DNA of 64,000 bases from Candidatus Planktophila lacus (GTDB taxonomy: Bacteria; Actinomycetota; Actinomycetes; Nanopelagicales; Nanopelagicaceae), in NCBI RefSeq assembly GCF_002287925.1, contig NZ_CP016769.1, positions 744,001 to 808,000 on the forward strand, written 5' to 3'. Below the pieces are notes generated by a model. It saw only the letters and a program-made list of their open reading frames with translations, searched no databases and was not told the DNA's origin. The stretch's first letter is position 1, and every line of letters starts with the position of its first letter. Made by a program: the position numbers and the translations under genes. This document shows positions 45,245 through 49,012 of the stretch, piece after piece.

Positions 45245-45847
45245 TTACAGCGCTGCCTTCACAATCAAAATTCGTTGGATTACGGTTACTAGGGCGAGAA
45301 TCAGTAGAAGCCAGATACCGATCGCTAGAGCAAAAGGAACTCCAAGACCTTCCAGACCAATCGCAGTTAAAGAGATGATCAACCGTTCGGTTCGCTCAGC
45401 GATTCCGCCAGAACAGGCGATTTGCATACTTTCGGCTTTGGCTCTGATGTATGGAACGAGTGAGCCAAAAACTAGTGCGACAATCACAACGGCAGTTAAT
45501 GGGTCATCTGCGTCTACTAAGTAAAGTGTTAAACCAGCCAGAATCGCCGAATCTGTAATTCGATCAATTGTTGAATCTAAAAATCCGCCCCAAGCGCTAG
45601 CCCCCTTGTGAGAGATACGAGCCATGGCGCCATCAAAGAGATCGCTAAGTGCAAAGAAGGAGATTACGAGCGTTCCGATAAAGAAATCGCCTTTGGGATA
45701 GAAATAGAGCGCTGAAGTGACAAGGCCAAGTGCGCCGATAAAGGTGACTGCATTTGGAGTTAAACCAATAGCAAGGGCACCGCGAGCGATCGGATTGATA
45801 GCGCGGGTGACTGCGGGTTTTAAAGAGGTGCTTAACATCAGGTCCAT
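45245..45847 (-). CDS. pgsA: CDP-alcohol phosphatidyltransferase (phosphatidylinositol phosphate synthase type)
   Basis: Joins CDP-diacylglycerol to an alcohol, here most likely inositol phosphate. The 200-residue membrane enzyme has the full signature D-x2-DG-x2-AR-x8-G-x3-D-x3-D: DLFDGAMARISHKGASAWGG continuing FLDSTIDRITD. Several hydrophobic helices follow. The link to patA and pimA favours PI phosphate synthase over phosphatidylglycerol phosphate synthase. Its start (45847, or internal Met at 45838) lies 39 bases from the divergent gene. Confidence 0.9.
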   Translation of the reverse strand: MDLMLSTSLKPAVTRAINPIARGALAIGLTPNAVTFIGALGLVTSALYFYPKGDFFIGTLVISFFALSDLFDGAMARISHKGASAWGGFLDSTIDRITDSAILAGLTLYLVDADDPLTAVVIVALVFGSLVPYIRAKAESMQIACSGGIAERTERLIISLTAIGLEGLGVPFALAIGIWLLLILALVTVIQRILIVKAAL

Positions 45848-45873
45848 CGTAGGCTCACCTGCGGATTTTCACC

Positions 45874-45879
45874 TATTCT
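45874..45879 (+). promoter_or_regulatory. Candidate start-proximal -10 element
   Basis: TATTCT matches the -10 consensus at four of six positions and ends seven bases before the GTG at 45887, with no Shine-Dalgarno sequence between. This spacing fits a leaderless transcript. The whole divergent gap to pgsA is only 39 bases. No -35 box was recognised. Confidence 0.4.
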
Positions 45880-45886
45880 GACGCCT

Positions 45887-46480
45887 GTGAGTTCAGAGAG
45901 AGATAGCGCTAGTCCGCGTATCCATATATATGGACATGTTTCCTCGCAACCAAAAGCGCTAGCCGAACTCTTCGGTGCGGTTCATTCCAATGAACCAATA
46001 GCCGAGAGTGAACTAGCTATCTTTGCAATTAATCCCGCTGCCGGAATTGATCAAGAAACGATTGATCTTTGGACCACTCTCTCTGACTTCCAGTTACCAC
46101 GTTTAGTTGTTGTAAATGAACTGGAGGGAAGCGATTCAGATTTCGACGATGCGGTATTACTTGCTAATCGAGTCTTCGATCCTCTAGTAACCCCGTACTT
46201 AGTTCTCCATGACGATGCAGGAAATCCATCTGCACTGATTGATCTCGAAACGCTCGAAATAATTGATTATTCGCAAAGCCCCATTTCACGTAGAGATAGC
46301 GATGCGGAACATAAAGAGTTAGTTGCAGATTTCAGAAGTGAATATTTAGAAGCGGTAGAAGATGCGGGAGAAAGCGCGTTTGAGGCAGGTTTACTCTTTC
46401 CAGCAATTCCAGTCGTGATCAGCAAAGGAATCGGTCTGGATATTGTGAACGCTTTTATAGCAAGAGCGGTAAGAAGTTAA
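45887..46480 (+). CDS. Degenerate orphan G domain related to EF-G-like protein
   Basis: A 197-residue protein with no obvious enzyme motif. Its layout follows the G domain of EF-G-like GTPases, but every nucleotide-binding motif is broken: RIHIYGHVSSQPKAL (11-25) where EF-G has GHxxxGKT; LAIFAINPAAGIDQET (43-58) like the strand before G4; LPRLVVVNELEG (70-81) where NKxD is expected; and IPVVISKGIGLDIVNAF (174-190) like the G5/G' end. Domains II-V are absent. Streptomyces carries an EF-G-like gene in this pgsA-HIT-thrS interval, from memory. The relationship is inference; function unknown. The start is GTG, possibly leaderless. Confidence 0.7.
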   Translation: MSSERDSASPRIHIYGHVSSQPKALAELFGAVHSNEPIAESELAIFAINPAAGIDQETIDLWTTLSDFQLPRLVVVNELEGSDSDFDDAVLLANRVFDPLVTPYLVLHDDAGNPSALIDLETLEIIDYSQSPISRRDSDAEHKELVADFRSEYLEAVEDAGESAFEAGLLFPAIPVVISKGIGLDIVNAFIARAVRS

Positions 46481-47020
46481 CTACCAAGCCTGTGCGAGCT
46501 CGGCACGTGTTTGAGCTAGAAGAACTGGCAAGACCTTGGTCTGTCCGATGATCGGCATGAAGTTAACATCGCCAGACCAGCGCGGAACAATATGTTGGTG
46601 GATATGTTCTGCAACTCCGGCACCTGATATCGCGCCTTGATTCATACCAAGATTAAAACCTGCTGGCGCCGAAACCTTACGTAGAGTTTTCATCGCATGC
46701 GCGCTTAGCTCGAATATTTCGTTACGTTCTTCCTGATTGAGTTCGGTTAAATCTGCGACATGGCGATATGCGCAAATAAGTAAGTGACCCGCGTTATACG
46801 GATAGAGATTCATAACGACATAAGCGCTTGTTCCGCGAGCAACAACTAGGCCTTCTTCATCGCTCATCTTGGGAATTTCACAGAAGGGGCAAGTGACTTC
46901 ATTTCCTGCAAGCGGTCGGTTCTCCCCCTTTAAATACTCCATACGATGCGGCGCCCAAAGTCGTTCCCAGCGATCGGGCATTCCTACCCCACCTGGAATA
47001 ACTTGGTCGCCTTCACGCAT
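46481..47020 (-). CDS. HIT-domain nucleotide hydrolase/phosphorylase
   Basis: Histidine-triad protein that acts on dinucleoside polyphosphates or AMP derivatives; the syntenic mycobacterial protein acts as an Ap4A phosphorylase. The 179-residue sequence has the triad motif AEHIHQHIVPRW, the upstream MNLYPYNAGHLLICAYRHV, and Cys residues in VTCPFCEIPKM that may bind zinc. It follows thrS by three bases and ends base-to-base against the convergent 45887 gene. Confidence 0.9.
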   Translation of the reverse strand: MREGDQVIPGGVGMPDRWERLWAPHRMEYLKGENRPLAGNEVTCPFCEIPKMSDEEGLVVARGTSAYVVMNLYPYNAGHLLICAYRHVADLTELNQEERNEIFELSAHAMKTLRKVSAPAGFNLGMNQGAISGAGVAEHIHQHIVPRWSGDVNFMPIIGQTKVLPVLLAQTRAELAQAW

Positions 47021-47023
47021 TGC

Positions 47024-49012
47024 TTAAACCTGTTTACGATCTGTAATCGCGCTGCGAATCTCCGCAATGGCATCTGCAACCGCGATTGAGTTCTTCTGTT
47101 CACCGTTGCGATAGCGAATCGAAACTTTGCCTGCTTGTTGATCTTCCTCACCTGCGATCAGCATGTAAGGAACTTTCTGCATCTGCGCATTGCGAATCTT
47201 CTTCTGCATCCGGTCATCAGAGGCGTCCAAATCGATTCGGATACCCGCTGCTTTAAACTCTCTAACAACCGAGGCAAGGTAATCCGCGAAAGCTTCAGCA
47301 ACTGGGATGGCAGTTACTTGTACTGGCGCCAACCATGGAGGGAATGCTCCTGAGTAGTGCTCGGTAAGAACTCCGAAGAATCGCTCGATAGAACCAAATA
47401 GAGCGCGGTGAATCATCACTGGACGCTGACGAGTTCCATCGGTTGCGGAATATTCAAGTTCAAAGCGTTGAGGCAACTGGAAATCAACTTGGATAGTAGA
47501 CATCTGCCAAGTGCGACCAATGGCATCTTTAGCTTGAACTGAAATCTTTGGCCCGTAGAACGCTGCGCCACCTTCATCCAGAACTAGTTCTAGTTTTTGG
47601 GCCAACGCAGCTTTACGTAGCGCTTCGGTTGCTTCGGCCCAGTCGCTATCTTCTCCGACAGATTTTTCAGGGTTGCGAGTAGATAGCTCGAGATAGAAAT
47701 CTTCTAAGCCGTAATCGCGCAATAAATTAAGAACGAAAGTTAAGAGTGAATCTAACTCACCCACCATCTGTTCTTTGGTGCAGTAAATGTGGGCATCATC
47801 TTGGGTAAAGCCGCGCGCACGAGTGAGTCCATGAATTACACCTGATTTTTCGTAACGATAGACAGTTCCAAATTCAAAGAGACGAAGTGGAAGTTCGCGA
47901 TACGAGCGTCCGCGCGATGCAAAAATTAAATTGTGGAAAGGGCAGTTCATCGGCTTCATGTAGTACTGCTGTCCAGCACGCTTGATAGTTCCGTCAGCGT
48001 GTAGCTCTTCATCCATAACCATCGGTGGATACATACCTTCTGAGTACCACTGCAAGTGGCCAGACTTTTCGAAGAGCGCAGCCTTAGTTAGATGTGGTGA
48101 GTAAACGAATTCGTAACCTTCATCTTCATGGCGCTTGCGTGAATAATCTTCCATCGCGCGACGAACAATGCCGCCCTTGGGATGAAAGACCGCAAGACCT
48201 GAGCCAATTTCCTCCGGAAACGAGAATAGATCGAGTTCGGTACCAAGGCGGCGATGATCGCGCTTTTCTGCTTCTGCTAAAAGTTCTAAGTAAGCCGCCA
48301 ACTCTTCTGGAGATGGCCAAGCAGTGCCGTAGATGCGTTGCAGCATTGGATTCTTCTCAGAACCGCGCCAATATGCGGCTGCGCTACGCATCAATTTAAA
48401 TGCGGGGATGTGCTTCGTTGATGGAAGATGCGGACCACGACAAAGATCAGACCAGACGGGTTGTCCATCGCGACCTAAATTGTCATAGATAGTGAGCTCT
48501 GCTCCCCCAACCTCTACGCTGGCTTCCTCTCCGGCGCCAGATTTAATTCCAATTAACTCGCATTTATATGGCTCGTTCGCCAACTCTTTAAGAGCATCTG
48601 CTTCGTTTGTAACGCGACGACGAAAACGTTGGCCTTCTTTTACGATCTTGCGCATCGCGCTTTCAATCTTCTCTAAATCTTCTGGGTTGAAAGGACGCTC
48701 TGGATCGAAGTCGTAATAAAAACCATCAGTGATTGGTGGACCGATACCGAGTCGAGTTTGTGCAAAAACTTGTTGTACCGCTTGCGCCATTACGTGCGCT
48801 GTTGAGTGGCGCAGAACTGATAAACCTTCAGGCGAAGAAATTGAAACTCCCTCGACAACATCACCATCTTTGAGATCAGTCCATAGGTCTTTGAGTTCGC
48901 CATTTATCTTGCAGACGACGATCTCTTTGCTTTCGGCGAAGAGATGGGTCGGGCGTTGGTCATCTGCAACGCTTACGGCGCGACCATCTACGGTGAGCGA
49001 GAGCTGGGACAT
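47024..49012 (-). CDS. thrS: Threonyl-tRNA synthetase
   Basis: Charges tRNA-Thr. The 662-residue protein is full length: N-terminal TGS domain, editing domain with [17 protein letters not shown] (HxxxH) and [15 protein letters not shown], class II core with zinc Cys in [13 protein letters not shown] and [20 protein letters not shown], and C-terminal anticodon domain. The ATG at 49012 is followed directly by the TGS strand. It lies four bases after pabC. Confidence 0.98.

Follow-up and report, generated by a model that had tools for sequence, protein, structure and literature searches.

Our analysis revealed that the open reading frame at 45887-46480 of the window, by which we mean the whole stretch of 64,000 nucleotides analysed, encodes a protein whose homology to the EF-G2 (EFG II) G domain is well beyond chance. 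On the sequence evidence, this gene (hereafter the remnant) is shown to descend from a full-length EF-G2 that was reduced before most of the order diversified, and to be maintained by strong purifying selection. It is almost certain to be a functional non-GTPase of EF-G2 origin, and the best explanation overall, to which we give an even chance and no more, is that of an EF-G2-derived binding module, most likely for the stalk protein bL12 via its G' region. It would make the remnant a conserved pseudoGTPase that arose from a translation factor, which is unusual among bacteria.

Anatomy of the remnant and its homology to EF-G2

The features of the locus are listed below, the names of the secondary-structure elements in the remnant being transferred from EF-G by alignment.

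45245..45847, minus strand: phosphatidyltransferase gene of pgsA type, divergent neighbour
45850..45855, plus strand: TAGGCT hexamer, 31 nt upstream of the start codon in the window's clade; in most other genera it is the -10 and lies 5-8 nt from the start
45874..45879, plus strand: -10 element TATTCT, 7 nt upstream of the GTG; this hexamer is found a single time in the window
45887..46480, plus strand: EF-G2-derived putative pseudoGTPase ORF, 197 aa, GTG start at 45887, stop at 46478-46480
45917..45934, plus strand: beta1 strand, residues 11-16 RIHIYG (alignment and entropy); P-loop residues missing immediately after
45983..45997, plus strand, approximate: internal deletion junction; alpha1, switch I, beta2 and beta3/switch II gone, about 60 aa
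46007..46177, plus strand: beta4-alpha3-beta5-alpha4, residues 41-97; G4 NKxD replaced; D85, F86, D87 and D88 near-invariant
46190..46375, plus strand: G' strands and helix A, residues 102-163; most conserved part of the remnant (alignment, entropy)
46391..46471, plus strand: beta6 (G5 strand) with alpha5, residues 169-195, closing the G domain (alignment)
46481..47020, minus strand: HIT-family gene, convergent neighbour, 0-nt gap to the remnant
47024..49012, minus strand: thrS, belonging to the ancestral EF-G2 locus context

The initial annotation, made from the letters alone, had described an open frame tracking the G domain of EF-G from the P-loop strand to the G' region. In fact the frame is open over 197 aa and the match is real, but its extent was understated, since beyond G' the homology also takes in the G5 strand and alpha5 and thus reaches the end of the G domain, where the protein stops. 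The NCBIfam family for EF-G2, NF009377, matches the remnant with an E-value of 5.8e-16 over profile positions 103-219 of 700, and NF009381 matches with 7e-9; the score on NF009377 is 58 bits against a curated cut-off of 890, which is therefore not met. To the EF-Tu GTP-binding domain family (Pfam GTP_EFTU, PF00009) there is only a weak similarity, with E 0.07 and under the gathering score, and the motifs of that family are absent. Searches of families and of the PDB returned EF-G proteins as the only relatives beyond chance. With the single sequence the best PDB match is 9k0z, a 709-aa EF-G (8.3e-11), with 1wdt, an EF-G homologue from Thermus, matched at 1.9e-5; with the family profile the two rise to 3.8e-16 and 8.2e-12 respectively. 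The profile-profile comparison that had been proposed as a check (hhalign, remnant family versus full-length EF-G2) gave a probability of 99.8 and E 2.3e-28 over 159 columns. The identity to full-length EF-G2 is 32-42% across residues 41-157, and that to the canonical EF-G of the same genome is 27% across 80 aa. The latter is encoded separately and is apparently intact as far as it was read, and therefore translocation does not depend on the remnant protein.

The alignment with full-length EF-G2 bears out the early statement that GKT, NKxD and domains II-V are gone. At the P-loop the remnant has YGHVSSQP instead of VGHSGAGKT, with the lysine and the threonine lost, and at G4 it has NELE instead of TKLD; the DxxG of switch II was lost within the deletion of about 60 residues between beta1 and beta4, and the G2 motif xxxSx is absent as switch I is deleted. 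Altogether G1 (GxxxxGKT), G3 (DxPG) and G4 (NKxD) are all lacking, a GH-x-S motif persists after beta1 in most members of the family, and domains II-V are missing. A second deletion removed about 24 residues of the helical part of G', after helix A. The protein is acidic, with a net charge of about -23. Across 44 members the best conserved residues are D85-F-D-D88, T102-P-(Y/F)-L-V-L-H108, G112, P114, I118, L120, D127-Y128, E141-H142, L145-V146, F149, E152, F165, G168, P172, P175 and G183, among which T102 to H108, D127-Y128, E141-H142, F149 and E152 are the conserved residues of G'. These positions lie mostly on alpha4 and the G' face, not at the former nucleotide site.

Compared with EF-G2 (NF009377; FusA2 of mycobacteria), the remnant shares the locus and a homologous G domain from beta4 through the G' helix, and it partly retains the acidic region of G'; however it is without G1-G4, the switches and domains II-V, and has 197 instead of about 700 aa. 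With canonical EF-G (FusA) it has a distant G-domain homology, but it is inferred to be neither GTPase nor translocase. Of the traits expected of a pseudoGTPase, the remnant shows descent from a GTPase domain without nucleotide-binding motifs, and purifying selection (dN/dS 0.04-0.13); that it is nucleotide-free is predicted from sequence alone. Like the pseudoGTPase domains of p190RhoGAP (PMC5593906), an example without nucleotide binding, it is a G-domain descendant inferred to serve as a nucleotide-free binding scaffold; unlike them, the remnant is bacterial, derived from a translational GTPase, free-standing, and has no beta2/beta3.

A fold comparison, also suggested at the beginning, is less informative. 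The structure model, built from an alignment of 5 sequences, is poor (pLDDT 45, pTM 0.42); the top Foldseek matches are all translational GTPases (EF-G/RF3), with E about 6e-4 and TM 0.34-0.42, and a low-confidence model of this kind lends only weak support to a G-domain-like fold.

Locus, selection and promoter within the order

Wherever the locus was read in the order, pgsA (divergent), the remnant and HIT-thrS (convergent) follow each other in the same orientation, and the remnant thereby fits the ancestral arrangement pgsA - EF-G2 - HIT - thrS; the divergent gene at 45245..45847 we take to be pgsA from general knowledge of the locus. Full-length EF-G2 is found above the cut-off in one of the 151 genomes screened in the order, namely G081 (genus g23, L090; 1094 bits), from the same family and a different genus, where it occupies the same locus in the same orientation with HIT 1.9 kb away. 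Moreover, the full-length gene is located close to pgsA and/or HIT in the remaining families of the class for which loci were read, as had been supposed for related actinobacteria. The presence of the full-length gene at the same locus argues that the ancestor was a full EF-G2 which was reduced in place. Two outcomes had been named that would refute this origin, a fold unlike that of a P-loop GTPase and the absence of any EF-G-like gene at this locus in relatives; both attempts at refutation failed, the former on the significant homology to the G domain of EF-G and on the top matches of a poor model.

The extent of the reduction varies within the order. In the genus g21 (3 genomes; L086-L088, L091, L092) the version is longer, at about 345 aa, and retains the G' hairpin; on visual inspection its C-terminal 88-94 aa resemble domain V of EF-G, with which they are collinear. 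In hhalign, this C-terminal stretch matched EF-G domain V with a probability of 0.4%, which is not significant, and shuffled alignments of the two gave a mixed picture (0/400 for L086 against L024, up to 283/400 for others). The stretch may derive from domain V, and this is offered as a suggestion only.

The gene had been called an orphan, a description that has to be given up: matches to the remnant occur throughout the 17 genera of the order, in 267 of its 296 genomes and 105 of the 108 near-complete ones, and EF-G2 was independently reduced in other families. In six genomes without a match that were examined, HIT and pgsA are undetectable too (6/6), which makes an unassembled locus likelier there than a loss of the gene. 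The comparison of substitution rates among relatives, again one of the checks proposed, gave a dN/dS (Nei-Gojobori) of 0.04-0.13 in the informative pairs that are unsaturated or nearly unsaturated, similar to that of the pgsA neighbour, and thus indicates purifying selection; dS is close to saturation in many pairs. Most of the nucleotide changes fall at third codon positions.

The promoter-like element noticed initially corresponds to TATTCT, and its placement is conserved: in nearly all loci read, across genera, a TAnnnT hexamer lies 5-8 nt upstream of the start codon. Such a start-proximal -10 matches what is expected for leaderless actinobacterial mRNA, and a leaderless start is inferred. 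In the window's clade TATTCT seems to have replaced the older TAGGCT, which is located 24 nt further upstream, an apparent case of promoter turnover. The low dN/dS and the conserved leaderless -10 element together mean that the remnant is a functional gene. The initial idea, a non-GTPase with a role left behind by reductive evolution, thus has good support from homology, locus and dN/dS, the new role itself being unproven.

Some further observations were made at the locus. The divergent pgsA is transcribed from the same 40 bp that hold the promoter region of the remnant (45850-45879). The remnant and HIT stand tail to tail at 46478-46483, 0 nt apart, and in many genera their ends overlap in antisense, by 39 nt at most. 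In one genome that is 41% complete (G008, L023) the copy of the remnant is broken by an internal stop, which is either real decay or an assembly error.

Proposed binding role and its alternatives

Without P-loop, switches and NKxD, neither binding nor hydrolysis of GTP would be expected, and with domain IV missing the remnant would be unable to translocate. We propose that it is a small acidic module whose binding does not depend on nucleotide, an inference for which there are no partner data. The binding surface would be the conserved alpha4/G' face of the former G domain, and that the remnant acts via the G' face is moderately probable. Most likely it would dock by this face on bL12, or on another former partner of EF-G2, and would thereby tune how readily translation factors reach the ribosome, for instance when growth is slow.

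In EF-G, helix A of G' is known to have the C-terminal domain of bL12, a stalk protein, as its partner on the ribosome; in the remnant helix A is retained and acidic, the G' helical hairpin being partly deleted. Acidic G' residues of EF-G contact the L7/L12 stalk (PMC8446442), and the charged G' region is reported to be conserved in EFG II (PMC3150367), which together make bL12 the first candidate partner and do not amount to proof. At the remnant positions aligned to the bL12-contacting triad of EF-G, namely E155, D159 and E162, an acidic residue is found in 66%, 57% and 75% of the members respectively, and the three positions are less conserved than E141, E148 or E152. With no binding data at hand, bL12 or the ribosomal stalk as the partner can only be put forward tentatively, and a non-ribosomal partner is nearly as likely as bL12.

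In that latter case the remnant would be a nucleotide-blind scaffold that has lost its link with translation and binds through the G' face, possibly to something local such as the HIT protein or the membrane phospholipid enzyme. The wide conservation in the class of the order pgsA, EF-G2-type gene and HIT-thrS fits with this, as does an acidic and free-standing protein. However, full-length EF-G2 has the same neighbours, so the linkage is older than the truncation and does not imply an interaction, and in one locus (L059) 877 nt lie between the gene and HIT. Such a scaffold remains conceivable, with somewhat more against it than for it.

There is a slimmer chance that the remnant acts on the ribosome away from the stalk, for instance at the factor-binding site, where it could serve in hibernation or as an anti-association factor, given that it comes from a domain docking at the GTPase-associated centre. 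The contacts of EF-G with the GTPase centre are made by domain II and switch II, however, and both are gone from the remnant. The strengthened ribosome contacts predicted for EFG II members (PMC3150367) would also speak for such an action, but they sit in domain IV, which is missing here. It is very unlikely that the remnant retains an altered nucleotide-binding site and works as a cryptic GTPase or as a sensor of nucleotides: GH-x-S after beta1 and the truncated g87 versions of family f34, which retain GSGKT and TKLD, could be read in this way, but in the present order none of G1, G3 and G4 is present, and both switches have been deleted along with beta2/beta3. Finally, a decaying pseudogene, that is, a neutral leftover of EF-G2 open by chance, is scarcely credible and is refuted as a general account by the order-wide presence of intact copies (nearly all genomes, 17 genera), the conserved start-proximal -10 element, the dN/dS and the like constraint on independently truncated versions, even granting the loss of the catalytic motifs of the homologous EF-G, the internal stop in G008 and the different extent kept in g21, and the overlapping antisense HIT gene, with at most 39 nt shared, could hardly supply the constraint.

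Parallel reductions of EF-G2 in other families

A class-wide search and the reading of regions revealed that the pgsA...HIT locus also holds truncated EF-G2 in family f39 and in several genera of family f34. The lengths below are those of open frames, with start codons not settled.

Family f39 (L093-L096): 344-360 aa, the C-terminal part after the G domain of unassigned origin
Family f34, genus g97: about 232-249 aa
Family f34, genus g135: about 200 aa
Family f34, genus g103: 262 and 423 aa
Family f34, genus g87: 377-422 aa
Family f34, genus g67: 353 aa
Family f34, genus g147: 361 aa

Other genera of f34 retain full-length EF-G2, and in the f34 genus g130 no EF-G2-like match was found in 10 genomes, by loss or by divergence beyond detection. 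Draft MAGs are the source of some of the truncated genes, but a clean end 0-40 nt from HIT is seen in most of those measured. When full and truncated genes are marked on a tree built from five neighbouring proteins, 7 changes of the label are required, and at least 6 are forced by the branches starred there; such trees imply about six independent reductions of EF-G2, if full-length genes were never regained. Where close pairs exist the truncated genes are constrained, w being mostly 0.03-0.17, with 0.26 in g67 and 0.30 in a distant g103 pair.

The truncated genes that were read to their ends have all lost switch II (DxxG) and domains III-V, and all retain the stretch that runs from beta4 over the strands of G' to its helix A. 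The P-loop is often lost as well, but not in every case, as most truncated genes of g87 retain GSGKT and TKLD. For example, those of L121-L125 (G701, G699, G697, G702, G698), with 377-422 aa and w about 0.03-0.06, keep the P-loop and TKLD and are without DxxG and domains III-V.

The role of EFG II has been openly questioned in the literature (PMC3150367). One may speculate, though we doubt it more than we believe it, that the enduring function of EF-G2 would be binding through G/G', not GTP-driven translocation, and that its motor was discarded repeatedly with a free-standing stalk ligand as the result, which would act as a translation regulator or decoy in some of the most abundant freshwater bacteria. 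Against a nucleotide-independence shared by all reductions counts the P-loop and TKLD kept intact by most truncated g87 genes. About six reductions that kept the same stretch and dropped the domains for translocation amount to a deletion series made by nature, which points to the region with a selected function and makes it testable directly using small proteins; the surviving part should reveal what the long-unexplained EF-G2 really does. In this regard another species of g87 keeps an EF-G2 of 762 aa (L105:3135-5423, G404) whose domain IV is visibly degenerate, the conserved GGHGQ region being lost from it, and this is perhaps an early stage of reduction.
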